Below, one piece after another: positions 1,262 to 29,547 of a DNA stretch of 64,000 nucleotides. A program made the translations under genes and the position numbers. The stretch is taken from the NCBI RefSeq assembly GCF_002243645.1, contig NZ_CP017704.1:3924001-3988000 (forward strand), given 5' to 3'. Position 1 is the first letter of the stretch, and each line of letters opens with the position of its first letter. The DNA is from Peribacillus simplex NBRC 15720 = DSM 1321. Lineage in GTDB: Bacteria > Bacillota > Bacilli > Bacillales > DSM-1321. The notes beneath the pieces are model-generated. The model saw only the letters and a program-made list of their open reading frames with translations, ran no database searches and had not been told where the DNA came from.

Positions 1262-1699
1262 TTAAATGGTGAAATAATAGAAATGGTTCAATTCACGGAC
1301 GAAACCAAATTTTTCATAAAGTTTCTGTGCTTTTACATTATCCTTGCCTGTCTCCAGTGAAACCCCTTTGGCACCTGTTTCGCGTGCAAAAGTGATGGCC
1401 GCGTTCAATAACTCCTCGCCAAATCCCTTTTTGCGGGCGGACTCCCTCACAAATAAATCATTCAATACCCATGACCGCATCATACTCACAGATGAAAAAG
1501 AAGGGTATAATTGTACAAAACCAATAGGATTTCCTTCATCATAGGCCATAAAAACCACAGACTCCCCATTTGTCAGCCTTTCTCTTAAAAACTCCTTTGC
1601 GCGACCGGGATCGGATGTTTGCTCATAAAACACTCTGTATAAATCAAAAAGTTCGGTCAGTGATTCTAGCTCATGTAATGTAGCCTTCTGTATGCTCAT
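1262..1699 (-). CDS. GNAT family N-acetyltransferase
   Basis: 145-residue protein with a complete GNAT fold: N-terminal helix region, a beta4 strand around residues 75-85 (LNDLFVRES), the acetyl-CoA loop ARKKGFGEELL (about 87-98), and the C-terminal KAQKLYEKFGF (about 122-132) seen in RimI-like enzymes. It should transfer an acetyl group from acetyl-CoA to an amine; the substrate cannot be read from the sequence. Start ATG has a GGGGG ribosome site 7 bases upstream. It is convergent with abrB and separated from the ger operon by a terminator and a repeat array. Confidence 0.85.
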   Translation of the reverse strand: MSIQKATLHELESLTELFDLYRVFYEQTSDPGRAKEFLRERLTNGESVVFMAYDEGNPIGFVQLYPSFSSVSMMRSWVLNDLFVRESARKKGFGEELLNAAITFARETGAKGVSLETGKDNVKAQKLYEKFGFVRELNHFYYFTI

Positions 1700-1788
1700 A
1701 AATGGACCCCCAATTGTTAGAATACTCTTAATTTATCATTTAATTATGATATCCGACAAATTCAGGGCCTCATTTCCAACGCCAAAAA

Positions 1789-1825
1789 TCAGGATGGAGC
1801 TCAAAATGCCACCATCCTGACTTTT
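1789..1825. terminator. bidirectional intrinsic terminator
   Basis: Stem TCAGGATGG (1789-1797) / CCATCCTGA (1812-1820) with a 14-base loop. A T-run follows on the plus strand, and a run of five T precedes it in the minus-strand sense. In the minus sense it lies about 200 bp after the last ger gene and before the GNAT gene, so it probably ends the germination operon. Confidence 0.7.
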
Positions 1826-1859
1826 TTCATCATGAAGAGGGCTATTAAACCCAAGTTAG

Positions 1860-1975
1860 TAAACTCTTGGATAATAAGCGTTTACTCGTAGAATGTAGCA
1901 GCAAACTCATGTGATATCAGCGTTTACTCGTGAGTTTGTAGCAAATACTCGTGAATTAAGTCGATTTACTCGTCA
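1860..1975. repeat. 21-bp-phased degenerate array, TTTACTCGTGA core (locus 1)
   Basis: Six copies of a unit related to TTTACTCGTGA start at about 1860, 1881, 1903, 1923, 1944 and 1965, i.e. every 20-22 bp, separated by non-conserved ~10-base spacers. The same core in the opposite orientation occurs at 26669-26819. Spacers are far too short for CRISPR. The array lies between the ger operon stop and its terminator, so it would be part of the 3' end of that transcript. Confidence 0.75.
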
Positions 1976-2025: not shown

Positions 2026-3171
2026 TTACTCGAGTGGTTTAGCTTCTAATCCGCCTGTGTTAAGGATGTGTACCTTTACGTTTATATCATGTATTGAATT
2101 TTTATCTAAATAATCTTTCGGCTCTTTTATATGATTCTTTTGCCAGTATTTTGTCTCTTTGATATAAAGGATTTTACCTAAGCTTAAAGGGTCTGCGTTC
2201 TTTTGAATCCCGGTTTCAAAGCTTGTTTGGATTTCTTTTTTTATTTCATTTTCGAATTTTTGTTTAATCTTTTCGATTTCCATTTGTGTATCTAGCCCCA
2301 GTATTTTACCCGATACGTCAACGGAAATATCGAACTTGTACTTTCCATCCTTGAAAACAGGTTTTACTTTAGAATGTGGATGGGAGAAAGAGGCATAGAT
2401 GTCTTGCTTATTCATGTTAATGCTTACGGGAGTTTTGTTGGTCCTTTTAGTGAGCCAGCGTACACCGCTCAGTTCCTTTTCAGAGAACCAGGGTTGGGAC
2501 ACTTTATAGTAAATGACAAAAGCACCATCCATATAAAGGCTTTTTCGGTTTTTATCTTTTTCTTTCCATACTTTTTCGTTCCAAGTAATGGAAGGCAAGA
2601 TGGTGGTGGATGCTTTTTCCCGTTGATTAGAATAATACCTTTGGACCGTAATGGGTTCAATGTATGATCTGTTTCGATAGACATCCTCTGGTAAATATAA
2701 TGTCGTGTATAAAGGCGATAAATTAAAATAACCATTAATGGAGAAAAGCTCATCCAGGGAACTTTTTGTGGCGAAGATATTTGCTGAGTACCTAAGTAAT
2801 TGGTTTCTGTAAATATAATCCACTATTTCTGTACTTTGCTGCTTCAAAACATTTTCACTGATTACAAATGTGGAAATATGCCCTATATAGAGAGCTTGTT
2901 GAGTATTTCGCATCAGTTGATTTACGGCAAGCGAAATGGAACGGGCTTTTTGTTTTCCAACATATACGGGCGGATTTTCAGTTGGCTTCGCTTCCGTTTT
3001 AGCTACAGCAGCAAAGTCTACAAGCTGCGCATAAACGATATATTCCCCATCTTTGTAATCAATGCCCATTGCCGTTATATAATGAAAGTCCTGTATCGTT
3101 TTTTCATCCCAGCAACCCGAAAGTAAAAGGATTAAAGGTATGGTCAACAATAGTTTACAAAAGCGGAACAT
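2026..3171 (-). CDS. Ger(x)C family spore germination lipoprotein (germinant receptor C subunit)
   Basis: 381 residues from the ATG at 3171, which has an AAAGGAG ribosome site and starts 4 bases after the A-subunit stop; an upstream in-frame ATG at 3201 lies inside the A gene and lacks this site. A lipoprotein signal ends LLLSG|C, with the lipidated cysteine at residue 20, followed by WDEKTIQDFHYITAMGID, typical of GerAC/GerKC. C subunits are lipid-anchored on the outside of the spore inner membrane and form the receptor with A and B subunits. Last gene of the operon; a repeat array and terminator follow. Confidence 0.92.
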   Translation of the reverse strand: MFRFCKLLLTIPLILLLSGCWDEKTIQDFHYITAMGIDYKDGEYIVYAQLVDFAAVAKTEAKPTENPPVYVGKQKARSISLAVNQLMRNTQQALYIGHISTFVISENVLKQQSTEIVDYIYRNQLLRYSANIFATKSSLDELFSINGYFNLSPLYTTLYLPEDVYRNRSYIEPITVQRYYSNQREKASTTILPSITWNEKVWKEKDKNRKSLYMDGAFVIYYKVSQPWFSEKELSGVRWLTKRTNKTPVSINMNKQDIYASFSHPHSKVKPVFKDGKYKFDISVDVSGKILGLDTQMEIEKIKQKFENEIKKEIQTSFETGIQKNADPLSLGKILYIKETKYWQKNHIKEPKDYLDKNSIHDINVKVHILNTGGLEAKPLE

Positions 3172-3175
3172 GGCC

Positions 3176-4660
3176 TTACTGCTCCTTTCTGGTCTTATCA
3201 TTAGCTGCCAATGATCGCTTGCTCATGGAATTCCATGGCCTTTTTATGAATGCATCCATGATTTTTGCGAACCTTGGTGGATTCAGTCCTCCAATATAGG
3301 GAACCCCGAATGATTCAAGTCTGGATAATAAAGTGACAATGGAAAGGAAACCGATTATCAAGCCGTAGATTCCGTAAATGCAGCTGAGCGCTAAAACTAA
3401 CATACGCAGGATGGTGACGGCGCCTGTTAGTGACTGGTTTACAAGGGTATAAGATGCGACAGAAGTCACTGCAGTGACCACAAGCATGGTTTGTGAAGTC
3501 AGTCCTGCCCGTATCGCGGCATCACCGACAATGAGACCGCCTACAACTGCAACTGTCTGCCCAACCGCTTTAGGTAACCTGACTCCGGATTCACGGAATA
3601 GTTCAAATAAAATGAGCATGAGAATGAATTCCATGGTGGCGGATAAGGGAAGCCCGAGTCTTGAAAGGGTTATGGTGGCTAGTAACGGAAACGGTACCTG
3701 TTCAATGTTGAAAGCGGAAATGGATATCCAAAACCCAGGTAATAAAATGGTAATGCCAAGCCCCATAAAGCGAAGCAGTCGCTCCAGGCTTACAAATAGA
3801 TAAGGGAGATTCGAATCCTCTGCGGTTTTTATTTGCAATAGTAATGTAGAAGGAGCCACGATTATTGTTGGCATACCGTCCACGATTAGAATGAATCTTC
3901 CTTGATTGAGTGCTTCCACTGCAAAATCAGGGCGACTTGTATAATGGGTGAGTGGAAATATACTGAATTTACTTTTTGTGATCAATTCTTCCAATTGTTG
4001 GCTGCTAACCAATATATCAATATCAATGGAGTTAATCTTGGATCTTACATGTTTAACCAGATCTTTATTGATGATGTCATCTATGTACATCAGTGCGACT
4101 TTCGTTTGACTGCGCTTGCCAACGATAAAGTCTTCATAGGCTAACGATTTTGTTTTTAGACGTTTTCTGATTAAGGCTGTATTTATGGATAAATCTTCGA
4201 CAAACCCATCTCTTGGACCTCTTACCGAGACCTCGAAAGAAGACTCCTCAGGCTGCCGGTTCGGAACATTGGACAAATTTATTGAAAATAAATCTTGGTT
4301 CGACGGTATGAATAATAATGCATTCCCGGAGAAGATCAGCTGTTGGACACTAATGAATTCACTATCAATGGTCACTTTCGTCAAATCCACCAAGGGTTTT
4401 AGCTTGTTGATTGCCTCTTCCGCATCAATCCTCTCATCCAATTCCATCATTTTATTTAATTTTTCCAAAATTCCCTCGTTCAATAAACTGATATCGGCCA
4501 TACCCGAGCAATAAAAAATAAGGGCAGGAATGAGCCTTTCTGTTTCTCCGATATAAATCGTGTCAAATATGATATCTGAACTTGAACGGAATAACTCCCG
4601 AAATGTCTCTTCCTTTAATTCAGGCAGGGCTGGTTCATTTTTGGATCGTTTCATTCTCAT
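3176..4660 (-). CDS. GerA family spore germination protein (germinant receptor A subunit)
   Basis: 494 residues, a normal length for GerAA/GerKA. A hydrophilic N-terminal domain (about 1-250, including SDIIFDTIYIGE and VRGPRDGFVEDLSINTALIRKR) precedes about five membrane segments (250-460). The PFPLLATITLSRLGLPL region is characteristic of the family. It should act in the spore inner membrane in nutrient sensing and ion release. The start ATG has AAGGAGGG 8 bases upstream and overlaps the end of the B-subunit gene by 26 bp, indicating translational coupling. Confidence 0.93.
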   Translation of the reverse strand: MRMKRSKNEPALPELKEETFRELFRSSSDIIFDTIYIGETERLIPALIFYCSGMADISLLNEGILEKLNKMMELDERIDAEEAINKLKPLVDLTKVTIDSEFISVQQLIFSGNALLFIPSNQDLFSINLSNVPNRQPEESSFEVSVRGPRDGFVEDLSINTALIRKRLKTKSLAYEDFIVGKRSQTKVALMYIDDIINKDLVKHVRSKINSIDIDILVSSQQLEELITKSKFSIFPLTHYTSRPDFAVEALNQGRFILIVDGMPTIIVAPSTLLLQIKTAEDSNLPYLFVSLERLLRFMGLGITILLPGFWISISAFNIEQVPFPLLATITLSRLGLPLSATMEFILMLILFELFRESGVRLPKAVGQTVAVVGGLIVGDAAIRAGLTSQTMLVVTAVTSVASYTLVNQSLTGAVTILRMLVLALSCIYGIYGLIIGFLSIVTLLSRLESFGVPYIGGLNPPRFAKIMDAFIKRPWNSMSKRSLAANDKTRKEQ

Positions 4661-19738: not shown

Positions 19739-19775
19739 TGACTTGGAAAAATATAATATTCCGCGTTAAGGCGGA

Positions 19776-19809
19776 AGAGGTTCTAGCTACCCTCTCAAAA
19801 AAACTAAGG
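19776..19809 (+). promoter_or_regulatory. preQ1-I riboswitch aptamer (copy 1)
   Basis: AGAGGTTCTAGCTACCCTCT followed by an A-rich strand and CTAAGG matches the compact class I preQ1 aptamer: P1 AGAGG/CCTCT, the conserved C-rich loop, and an A-rich tail for the H-type pseudoknot. Ligand binding to preQ1 (a queuosine precursor) should favour the downstream terminator. Confidence 0.9.
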
Positions 19810-19812
19810 AGA

Positions 19813-19845
19813 AACAGTGCTCTATTCTTAGGGTGCTGTTTTTTT
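19813..19845 (+). terminator. expression-platform terminator of preQ1 riboswitch 1
   Basis: AACAGTGCTC pairs with GGGTGCTGTT (with G-U pairs), loop of 8, then a T-run, starting 3 bases after the aptamer and ending 24 bases before queC. Confidence 0.85.
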
Positions 19846-25806: not shown

Positions 25807-25838
25807 AATTAAGGAAAATGATAATCCGCTCGGGCGGA

Positions 25839-25872
25839 AGAGGTTCTAGCTACCCTCTCAAAAAAACTAAGG
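25839..25872 (+). promoter_or_regulatory. preQ1-I riboswitch aptamer (copy 2)
   Basis: The aptamer, from AGAGGTTCTAGCTACCCTCT through the A-rich strand to CTAAGG, is identical to copy 1 at 19776-19809. It controls a transporter instead of biosynthesis. Confidence 0.9.
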
Positions 25873-25874
25873 AG

Positions 25875-25906
25875 AACAGTGCTCTTTCTTAGGGTGCTGT
25901 TTTTTC
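25875..25906 (+). terminator. expression-platform terminator of preQ1 riboswitch 2
   Basis: AACAGTGCTC / GGGTGCTGTT stem, 7-base loop and T-run, nearly identical to 19813-19845, ending 20 bases before the transporter start. Confidence 0.85.
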
Positions 25907-25926: not shown

Positions 25927-26469
25927 ATGTTAAGAATTTTATTGTATTTAGTATCCATCATCACGGCGAATGTGGTTACAGCAGCTTTTGCGCCATTACA
26001 TTTTGGCATGTTCATCATTCCGATGGGTACATTGCTCATTGGGGGAACCTTCATCTTTCGAGATCTGGTCCAGAATAAATTCGGCCGCGCCAAGACCTAT
26101 ATATGTATCGTCACTGCACTTATTTTATCTGCGTGTGTATCATTCTTATTAGGGGATACGTTACTGATCGTATTTGCTTCCGCTTTATCGTTCGTGGTCG
26201 CAGAAACAGCGGATACGGAAATTTATACCCGTTTAAAGCTCCCGATGAGTTGGAGGGTGTTTTACAGCGGGATCGTTGGAGGCTTTTTCGATTCGGTGAT
26301 ATTTGTCGTGATTGGCCTAAGTCCACTGGGTGCCAATATATTACCATGGGAAGCAGTACCCGCTGCGGTTATCGGCCAAATCATCGTTAAAACTATCATT
26401 CAGTCAATCGGTGCCGTACTGTTGGGACGAATCAACGTAGAACTGGAGAAACGTGTAGTCTCCAGTTAA
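25927..26469 (+). CDS. ypdP: queuosine precursor transporter (YhhQ/VUT family, YpdP-like)
   Basis: 180 residues with about six membrane segments. GGTFIFRDLVQNKFGR (about 39-54) and ETADTEIYTRLKLP (about 92-105) are family signatures of YhhQ/VUT proteins, which import preQ0/preQ1. The start follows TAAGGAG closely. The preQ1-I riboswitch directly upstream fits import of a queuosine precursor. Confidence 0.88.
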   Translation: MLRILLYLVSIITANVVTAAFAPLHFGMFIIPMGTLLIGGTFIFRDLVQNKFGRAKTYICIVTALILSACVSFLLGDTLLIVFASALSFVVAETADTEIYTRLKLPMSWRVFYSGIVGGFFDSVIFVVIGLSPLGANILPWEAVPAAVIGQIIVKTIIQSIGAVLLGRINVELEKRVVSS

Positions 26470-26490: not shown

Positions 26491-26640
26491 ATGGATGGAA
26501 CCAAAAAAGAAGAAGACAAATGCTATTGCCTCGAAGCCTTTCGTGAAAAATATGGCCCGCATGTTCAAGGGGAATGTATGAAGCTCTCCTGCGCCAATTA
26601 TCGCAAGCATAAAGGAATAGACAAAAAAGGACCAAATTAG
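26491..26640 (+). CDS. small Cys-rich protein (putative metal-binding), unknown
   Basis: 49 residues beginning MDGTKKEEDKCYCLEAFREK, with cysteines at 11, 13, 29 and 34 (C-x-C ... C-x4-C), suggesting a zinc-binding knuckle. AGGAGGG lies about 8 bases before this ATG. It starts 22 bp after the queuosine transporter, so it is probably cotranscribed and under the same riboswitch. The terminator overlaps its last codons. Family not recognised. Confidence 0.65.
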   Translation: MDGTKKEEDKCYCLEAFREKYGPHVQGECMKLSCANYRKHKGIDKKGPN

Positions 26641-26651
26641 GTCCTTTTTTT
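26623..26651 (+). terminator. terminator of the transporter operon
   Basis: AAAAAAGGACC / GGTCCTTTTTTT with a 6-base loop, overlapping the stop codon of the Cys-rich gene. Confidence 0.88.
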
Positions 26652-26668
26652 GCGTGATTGAAGTAAGG

Positions 26669-26819
26669 CACCAGTAAACGTGCTGAATCATGAGTCCAGT
26701 ATGAATTCACGAGTAAAAGTGCGAATTCACGAGTAAAACAGCAAAACTCACGAGTAAAAGTGCGAAACTCACGAGTAAACAGCTCAAATTAATGAGTACA
26801 GCACATTTTCACGAGTAAA
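26669..26819. repeat. 21-bp-phased degenerate array, TCACGAGTAAA core (locus 2)
   Basis: Eight units start at about 26669, 26688, 26707, 26727, 26748, 26769, 26790 and 26809, spaced 19-21 bp. Five carry TCACGAGTAAA exactly; others are degenerate. The core is the reverse complement of locus 1 (1860-1975). It lies between two convergent genes' terminators. Function unknown. Confidence 0.8.
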
Positions 26820-26823
26820 TAGC

Positions 26824-26872
26824 AAAAAAAGCTTCCTGCGCCGTTCCATTAATGGTTGCAGGAAGCTTTTTA
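26824..26872. terminator. terminator of the padR gene (bidirectional)
   Basis: AAAAAGCTTCCTGC / GCAGGAAGCTTTTT stem with an 18-base loop, 7 bases from the padR stop; T-runs on both strands. Confidence 0.85.
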
Positions 26873-26878
26873 TTTTGT

Positions 26879-27199
26879 TTAGAATTGCTCTGCGCTTTTC
26901 CGAACTAATTTTTCCAGGAAGAAAAAGCATTCTCGTTTCCGCTCAAGTTCGGTTTGTCCATTTTCGGTGACATGATAATATTTCCTGCGGCCTGACTCTG
27001 ACTCTTTCCAATGGCCTTTTATGAATTCTTTTTTTTCTAACCGTTTCAGGGCGGAGTAGAGGGTGCCTTCACTTATTTGATATTTGCCCATGCTCATTTC
27101 CTTCAAGATCTTCGTGATTTCATAGCCGTATAGCTTTTTTTGTGAAAGAAGTGAAAGCAAAAGGAGGTCAATGCTTCCCTTCATTAATTCTTTATCCAA
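26879..27199 (-). CDS. PadR family transcriptional regulator
   Basis: 106 residues. The PadR winged helix is complete: MKGSIDLLLLSLLSQKKLYG, YEITKILKEMS, ISEGTLYSALKRLEKKEFI (recognition helix) and SGRRKYYHVTENGQ (wing). TTG at 27199 is chosen because AAGGAGGAG lies 7 bases upstream; the longer frame from 27262 has no ribosome site. Usually represses neighbouring transporter or phenolic-acid genes; no obvious target adjoins it. Confidence 0.85.
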   Translation of the reverse strand: MDKELMKGSIDLLLLSLLSQKKLYGYEITKILKEMSMGKYQISEGTLYSALKRLEKKEFIKGHWKESESGRRKYYHVTENGQTELERKRECFFFLEKLVRKSAEQF

Positions 27200-27509
27200 A
27201 TAAATTCTCCTCCTTTTCATTTTTAAAGTGTAATCCTTTGTACATCGTATCACAAGGTGCATTTTACTTTTCTTTTAAAAAATGGTTAAATGACGATTGC
27301 TAAATGAATTTAATCATAGTAAAATGTGCTTCGGAACGGATGAGTTGTGAAGCGTGTGGTAAGGATACTATATACATGATTTAATTGTTTAAATGAAAAA
27401 ACGGAATAGGATAGAAGAATCCCTACTCAAGGGGTATTAATTGATTTTTTTTCGAAAATCATATAGATTCTATTTATTAACAAGAGCAGAGAAAGAAGGT
27501 CCTAGATAG

Positions 27510-29114: not shown

Positions 29115-29399
29115 AAAAAATTCACGTCCTTATTTCCTATAAAGGAGATGTAATAGTTAGTATGATGAATTGAAGCAAGGATTATCACGACTGGGAAGGT
29201 TATTTAAAGACCTCTAAAGATGGGGCCGTTTATATTTAAGCCGACTCCTTCATAAGTATTACCCAACATTGGACCCTAGGAGACATTCTTAACTGTTTTC
29301 TAAAAATTTATATTAATATAACAACTTTAAATCGTATTGTAATTAAAAATAAACTGATTTAAAATGATATCTTTCCTGAGAAATTTATTTAAAAAATAT

Positions 29400-29467
29400 C
29401 CTTGTATAATATCAGTGATGATGGTCTGATAGTTTCTACCTGGCAGCCGTAATGCCGGACTACAAGG
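29400..29467 (+). promoter_or_regulatory. purine riboswitch aptamer, guanine-type
   Basis: P1 CCTTGTA / TACAAGG (29400-29406, 29461-29467) encloses the conserved core TATAATATCAG, then AGTTTCTACC and GGACTAC. The base in the position that pairs with the ligand (GGAcTAC) is C, which specifies guanine/hypoxanthine; adenine riboswitches have T there. It precedes a purine nucleoside transporter, like yxjA/nupG in B. subtilis. Confidence 0.9.
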
Positions 29468-29547
29468 AAGTATGAAAATAGAAGAGATGAACAGGTTTAT
29501 GTTGCTTCGCTTGAAAAAAGCTTGATCTACATAAAATTGTTTCAATG

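Follow-up and report, generated by a model that had tools for sequence, protein, structure and literature searches.

In one clade of Peribacillus, a genus of soil bacteria, dozens of arrays of a 21-bp direct repeat lie behind the 3′ ends of genes, nearly always point along the transcription of the gene that they follow and mostly decay with distance from it. Their core sequence is uniform within a genome and different between lineages, and many of their sites are orthologous across species, with copy number and spacers turning over. These arrays are interpreted here as clade-specific tandem directional recognition sites, read by a putative trans-acting factor and having a boundary role, a reading to which we assign a probability of roughly 0.38. 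The reader would most likely be a sequence-specific DNA-binding protein, and the boundary role, in the sense of blocking or insulating, is a guess made from position and orientation. The kind of repeat is already known; what is new is the rule that it obeys, namely its location behind genes, its direction along transcription, its decay away from the gene and its lineage-specific core.

Two arrays in the window and their surroundings

The window is a stretch of 64,000 nucleotides (G000:C1:3924001-3988000) from the genome of Peribacillus simplex NBRC 15720 = DSM 1321, here G000, which is 5,645,783 bp long and assembled as a single contig. Array 1 (26668..26819, plus strand) occupies a convergent gap and is made of eight units of the 21-bp repeat, five of them carrying the exact TCACGAGTAAA and three being degenerate. 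The units start at 26668, 26688, 26707, 26727, 26748, 26769, 26790 and 26809, in steps of 19-21 bp, as a previous interpretation of the same DNA (the sequence-only reading) had described. The inverted six-unit array reported by that reading is equally present: array 2 (1860..1975, minus strand) lies in a tandem gap between minus-strand genes, and its units, at 1860, 1881, 1902, 1923, 1944 and 1965, all follow each other at 21 bp. Since only one of the six is exact, array 2 is considered a decayed array; related loci are found in G041 and G014. Tandem Repeats Finder returns a period of 21 at 26703-26779 and a period of 42 bp at 1861-1943. The unusual part is the clustering of the units rather than their number in the window, where single 11-mers with at most two mismatches occur 24 times for 18.3 expected, a count reached by 9 of 100 shuffles.

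Array 1 is preceded by a Vut_1-family transporter gene (25927..26469, plus strand; Pfam PF02592) with a preQ1 riboswitch ahead of it (25834-25876; Rfam RF00522) and, directly 5′ of the array, by a 49-aa ORF without a Pfam family (26491..26640, plus strand). The convergent gene downstream codes for a PadR-family regulator (26879..27262, minus strand; PF03551). Array 2 follows a spore germination gene of the gerAC type (2026..3201, minus strand; PF05504 and PF25198) and is followed by a GNAT acetyltransferase gene (1262..1699, minus strand; PF00583). The window also contains a second preQ1 riboswitch of equal score (19771-19813) and a purine riboswitch (29382-29482).

Array 1 sits between two terminator-like hairpins, and array 2 between the stop codon of the gerAC-type gene and a single one. 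The first hairpin (26623..26651, plus strand) lies between the upstream operon and array 1 and overlaps the 49-aa ORF at its stop codon; the fold of 26618-26655 reaches -14 kcal/mol, with a z of -4.8 against shuffles. The second (26824..26875), placed between array 1 and the padR-type gene, has A-rich and T-rich arms and is terminator-like on both strands (fold of 26820-26880, z -7.2 on the plus and -4.0 on the minus strand). The third lies downstream of array 2 (1784..1826, minus strand; fold of 1783-1830, z -6.2). All three, characterized by A-rich and U-rich arms, were spotted by eye and then checked by RNA folding against shuffles. The statement that both arrays are next to terminators stands insofar as hairpins folding above shuffles are found near each of them, and not as regards the consensus terminator scan, which lists none at either window array, these three hairpins included.

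The repeat unit and its lineage-specific core

The unit consensus consists of AAYTCACGAGTAAA, followed by six G+C-rich variable bases and a purine (R), for a total of 21 bp. Among 559 core-to-core intervals of 16-23 bp, 476 measure exactly 21 bp and 508 measure 20 or 21 bp, and 26 further core intervals are of 42 bp. Strict helical phase is not kept, however, as 81 of the 559 intervals are of 18-20 or 22 bp, and intervals of 31-32 bp, in which an additional half turn would restore the phase, were not seen among those measured. The proposal that all cores lie on one face of the DNA is no more than compatible with these data, since tandem duplication alone could pass on a 21-bp period. A coding repeat of seven codons per 21 bp was discarded, because many spacings break the frame and there is no preference for 18 bp. 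CRISPR spacers measure about 25-40 bp; the variable part of 6-7 bp found here is too short for a CRISPR array, as had been recognized from the letters of the window.

The left half of AAYTCACGAGTAAA varies by lineage. The right half, CGAGTAAA, served as the search key, so that its conservation is partly built in, and lineages with other cores are under-counted, array finding having used exact CGAGTAAA. Specifically, the dinucleotide preceding CGAGTAAA is CA in 52 of 62 units in G000, 89 of 97 in G001, 95 of 112 in G041 and 133 of 150 in G007, while GG or CG takes its place in 97 of 103 units in G014 and 69 of 71 in G018; the lineage core types contrasted in this way are CACGAGTAAA and GGCGAGTAAA. 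In addition, CGAATAAA is found in place of CGAGTAAA in 22 of 26 units at one G045 locus and in 31 of 33 at one P. muralis locus.

Distribution in the genome and in the genus

In G000 the pattern CACGAGTAAA-N6-14-CACGAGTAAA matches 29 times and its reversed control not once; for the less strict GAGTAAA pair the corresponding counts are 39 and 4. As pair matches far exceed the reversed controls, the repeat is not a product of chance. Arrays exist beyond the window, a condition that the sequence-only reading had set for its own refutation: at least 17, the two of the window among them, were examined in this genome together with their surroundings.

In a survey covering 36 genomes of the genus, 20 species have 15-470 GAGTAAA pairs each, G021 has 4 and the remaining 15 have 0-3; in these array-poor species the reversed control gives 0-2 pairs. 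Arrays of GAGTAAA pairs were found in none of 7 other genomes of the family, of 16 from other families of the order and of 397 other genomes of the phylum. On a midpoint-rooted gltD tree, covering 30 of the 36 species (the remaining six have 0-3 pairs), two changes account for this distribution: one clade, comprising 21 species, gained the arrays, and G021 nearly lost them. An example of the spread within the genus is provided by a NERD-domain gene that flanks an array in G018. Each of its 8 loci, from P. simplex, P. frigoritolerans, P. muralis and further isolates, has an array or a decayed array behind the gene, with a CGAGTAAA core in P. simplex RUG2-6 (L199) and a CGAATAAA core in P. muralis DSM 16288 (L204).

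On a map of the 96 strict pairs of the G001 chromosome, arrays crowd the right arm between 0.37 and 2.14 Mb, are missing in the stretch between 2.14 and 3.37 Mb and become sparse along the left arm. Exclusion from the terminus of the kind operated by nucleoid occlusion was dropped as a candidate, left-arm arrays of both G000 and G001 being near the terminus.

Placement behind genes and orientation

The placement of the arrays was evaluated at 77 loci of six species, retaining arrays with at least two exact cores; loci outside G000 were the first-listed ones in five species and hence form a non-random sample. With gene directions given relative to the array, upstream gene first, the 87 arrays placed fall into the classes ++ (45), +- (33), -+ (6) and -- (3). 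When loci are merged into sites by clustering of their flanks with the arrays masked, the 39 sites obtained are, by majority, ++ in 21 cases, +- in 16, -+ in 1 and -- in 1; nine loci were chained into one group, and sites are therefore probably under-counted. As co-orientation is automatic in convergent gaps, orientation has to be judged on tandem gaps, in which 21 of 22 sites have the array running in the direction of the upstream gene and 1 has it opposed (p = 1e-5). Convergent gaps are over-represented (16 of 39 sites, compared to 51 of 289 background gaps; p = 0.002) and divergent ones are avoided (1 of 39, compared to 60 of 289; p = 0.004). The background comprises 178 tandem, 51 convergent and 60 divergent gaps from 45 windows of G000 and G001, each measuring 150-700 bp, flanked by ORFs of 90 aa or longer and not length-matched to the array-bearing gaps; ORFs were assigned by a simple caller as the longest non-overlapping ones. 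The bias to 3′ ends and to convergent gene pairs that the sequence-only reading had envisaged is accordingly present. Exceptions exist, as the direction of 9 of the 87 arrays differs from that of the upstream gene, and the seven such cases inspected include real ones.

Replication provides a second axis along which orientation can be compared. In G000, 15 of 17 arrays have leading-strand orientation. Among lagging-strand arrays, window array 2 and L080 of G001 follow their gene; for L064, no co-oriented gene reaching 90 aa could be clearly identified. The evidence is thin but points to orientation being set by the gene over replication.

Where hairpins are concerned, a terminator-like one lies between the stop codon and the array for 39 of the 78 arrays with a co-oriented upstream gene, at a median of 54 bp ahead of the first exact core; it is found beyond the array in 9 of 78 and on neither side in 33 of 78. 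These figures come from a stricter version of the detector, a looser first version having given 54 of 83. The stricter detector recognizes 121 of 256 ordinary gene ends, so that the rate ahead of arrays is no higher. Taken together, the proportions before the array, beyond it and at ordinary gene ends indicate that arrays are located at ordinary gene ends and that, wherever the detector finds a hairpin, they mostly come after it. The stop codon of the preceding ORF is also the starting point of six arrays (L083, L086, L110, L119, L133 and L137). At L080, the array starts right after the TAA of a gene that we take to be alpha/beta-hydrolase-like, and in its G041 orthologue, L094, this stop is absent and the reading frame continues into the first array units.

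A position at 3′ ends with an excess of convergent gaps, where positive supercoils meet, together with a period of two helical turns, could also be explained by a topological or nucleoid site, at which gyrase or an architectural protein bound behind genes would absorb supercoils or shape the nucleoid. BIMEs play such a role in enterobacteria. Such a site needs no gene orientation, however, and yet 21 of the 22 tandem-gap sites have it; moreover, the arrays are uneven and asymmetric along the two arms, drawing no simple nucleoid map, and related species do without them. We consider this explanation quite improbable, the last in order among those weighed here; a topological or nucleoid-type role is what Subirana and Messeguer suggest for these repeats (PMC8161180).

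Polarity within the arrays

When arrays are followed outward from their exact cores, degenerate units number 142 in the direction away from the gene and 57 towards it, over a background of 0.04 units per walk. The asymmetry is seen by array, 45 leaning distal and 13 proximal (p = 3e-5), and by site, with 24 distal and 7 proximal (p = 0.003). It is maintained at convergent sites, which have the end of a gene on either flank (12 versus 2; p = 0.013), and is not significant in tandem gaps alone (11 versus 5); in this subdivision, a site was counted in each class when its species differ in gap class. Likewise, mismatches are more frequent at the far end of arrays with six or more units, amounting to 1.62 of 14 positions in the last three units and to 0.98 in the first three, with 30 of 54 arrays differing in this direction and 17 in the other (p = 0.018). 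Both the orientation with the gene and the polarity away from it suggest that the process arriving at the arrays is transcription from the upstream gene.

Polarity and orientation along the transcript would be natural also for an element acting at the RNA level, in which GAGUAAA repeats within read-through or 3′-UTR RNA would bind an RNA-binding protein or a nuclease and thereby tune 3′ ends or act as a sponge. The six arrays that start on a stop codon are in line with this explanation, and 52-nt satellites of B. coagulans, which belong to a related class, are reported to be transcribed (PMC8161180, PMC8625621). Against it, the array is behind a terminator-like hairpin in 39 of 78 cases, and folding has no strand difference (mean z of -1.2 for the sense and -1.4 for the antisense strand at 37 sites). 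Pairing between core and spacer in RNA is weak, as the mean fold energy is attained by column-shuffled controls (6 and 2 of 60) and by permutations within units (28 and 6 of 60), and no Rfam family scores above cut-off on the arrays. We regard an RNA-level element as rather improbable. In particular, the processing of transcript 3′ ends, one of the roles proposed from the letters of the window, has become less likely for arrays behind a terminator-like hairpin, also in view of the equal folding on both strands.

Evolution of orthologous sites

The site of window array 1 was recovered at 28 orthologous loci, 21 of which belong to the array clade. In 19 of these 21, CGAGTAAA cores are present, ranging from 2 (in G011 and G046, otherwise degenerate) to at least 34 (in G007); cores were counted within 1,100 bases of the stop, and the longest arrays may be longer. 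In G045 (L183), the sequence behind the Vut_1 gene is mostly a GATAAA-type array, with cores about 20-21 bp apart, and in G021 one core is left together with mutated units. None of the 7 loci from outside the clade has an array. At this same site the core is of the CA type in G000 and G007 and of the GG/CG type in G014 and G018.

The gltD site gives a comparable picture. Among the 21 clade species, 16 have 4-17 exact cores, while G021, G011 and G046 have one core each; of the species outside the clade, 9 were examined and none has an array there. G000 contributes four exact cores, and the single G021 unit has the same flanks. In G045 (L153), CGAATAAA arrays alternate with a longer block of other sequence, forming a higher-order repeat. 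In G006 (L149), other sequence, resembling an insertion element, is found directly after a broken terminator hairpin. The scarcity in G021 is genome-wide, with 4 matches to AAAYTCACGAGTAAA compared to 31 in G000 and 131 in G001. Assembly loss is an unlikely cause of it, because other drafts, such as G042 with 190 contigs, are array-rich, the G021 assembly consisting of 130 contigs.

Copy number that varies between isolated units and a chain of 75 at one locus, plain tandem and higher-order duplications, and the coexistence of array-rich and array-poor species in one clade are features expected of a selfish or neutral satellite. According to this explanation, slippage or recombination multiplies the units, the core is needed by the copying or seeding machinery, and the repeat survives behind genes, where it does least harm, with no host function; the avoidance of promoter-bearing divergent gaps is what purging of harmful insertions predicts. 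Tolerance alone, however, does not lead to the orientation observed in tandem gaps (21 of 22 sites) or to the polarity. In addition, recent spread is not seen: spacers are common to different loci of one genome no more than by chance in five of six genomes, the exception being G001 with 3 shared spacer pairs for 0.67 expected (reached in 16 of 500 shuffles). No array was found in the mobile sequences searched, since 31 viral contigs contain one pair each, judged to be about chance level, and the window array has no match in plasmid and phage records (BLAST, low-complexity filter on). Moreover, the best known movers of such repeats, the Y1/RAYT transposases, are absent from 20 of the 21 clade species. 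Y1_Tnp (PF01797) is present in one array-clade species (G007) and in 14 of the 15 array-poor ones, an almost mutually exclusive pattern of which common descent may be the sole cause. On balance, a satellite devoid of function is judged unlikely.

Relation to known repeats

The sequence-only reading had found that the arrays fit no feature type known to it. Such repeats had, in fact, already been published: Subirana and Messeguer (2021; PMC8161180) described constant-size repeats in 176 Bacillus genomes, B. simplex having 27 arrays of 20-21 nt and B. muralis 22. The authors called the 21-nt repeat characteristic of the SIMPLEX group, pointed out its two helical turns and proposed that either a protein polymerises along the DNA or the RNA is transcribed. 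The arrays studied here share with those repeats the length, the clade, the non-coding position, the occurrence of several families per genome and a short characteristic signal in every repeat, the rest being variable (PMC8161180). Simplex-group arrays are defined by at least four repeats; of the two in the window, array 1 has eight units (five exact) and array 2 six (one exact), and exact cores number below four in some of the other arrays; intervals of 20-21 nt, presence in B. simplex and B. muralis and non-coding sequence with a kept signal are likewise found. The main text of PMC8161180, as far as it was covered, does not contain the simplex core, the placement behind genes, the orientation, the polarity, the orthologous sites or the lineage-wide core change. 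More generally, no earlier report of the placement, polarity and core-change rules was found in the open-access texts consulted, among them passages of PMC8161180, PMC6749651 and PMC8625621. A literature search on Peribacillus intergenic tandem repeats gave no match, and papers matching the letters of the motif are unrelated, judging by title and the opening of the abstract.

Other families of repeats are similar in part. As described in PMC3532100, STAR elements of Staphylococcus are intergenic direct repeats with one motif, locus-specific spacers, local expansion and contraction, and uneven abundance between species, all of which applies here as well. Their motif is, however, a GC-rich 14-bp one, their spacers measure 40 bp or more and species do not share their locations, whereas the present arrays have a AAYTCACGAGTAAA core, spacers of 6-7 bp and many orthologous sites, and are therefore outside the STAR definition (PMC3532100). 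The TAACTGA repeats of Beggiatoaceae and others are likewise intergenic direct repeats of a single short motif, confined to certain lineages, for which a binding factor has been proposed; these heptamers are mostly located just upstream of start codons (PMC4679880), unlike the arrays, which are behind genes.

Units that are abundant, short, extragenic and often behind genes are also typical of REP/BIME, which are palindromic, alternate in orientation and are associated with a RAYT (Y1_Tnp) transposase. This class was rejected for the arrays, in which units run head to tail in one orientation and PF01797 is missing from all clade species except one.

A proposed directional boundary read by a putative trans-acting factor

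The reading of the arrays as directional sites for a trans-acting factor draws on uniform cores at unlinked loci, mostly private spacers, cores set by lineage and decay in the near-loss species, all of which argue for a reader acting in trans. In particular, lineages with different cores occupy the same sites, and both G021 sites examined have collapsed or decayed. On the other side, most unit changes resemble tandem duplication, which needs no factor, and species of the sister branches live without arrays. Cooperative protein binding, among the roles proposed by the sequence-only reading, stays the leading candidate class of explanation. In mechanistic terms, a putative row of protein on the array, just behind the terminator, would block or insulate read-through transcription, above all between convergent genes, and the gene-proximal units would matter most.

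A broader extension is put forward tentatively and is, as a whole, somewhat unlikely: the arrays, behind dozens of genes, could form a genome-wide and directional system that marks the boundaries of transcription units and is confined to a single Peribacillus clade, in which a fast-evolving factor and its sites change together, and which was nearly lost once. Constant-size satellites of 20-21 nt and 52 nt are abundant in several Bacillus groups, and the literature consulted gives them no function. If true, the proposal would supply the first positional and evolutionary rule for bacterial constant-size satellites. The placement rule, the polarity and the natural near-loss species make the function of such a satellite directly testable, and the presence of different cores at the same orthologous sites represents a natural co-evolution experiment for finding the factor.
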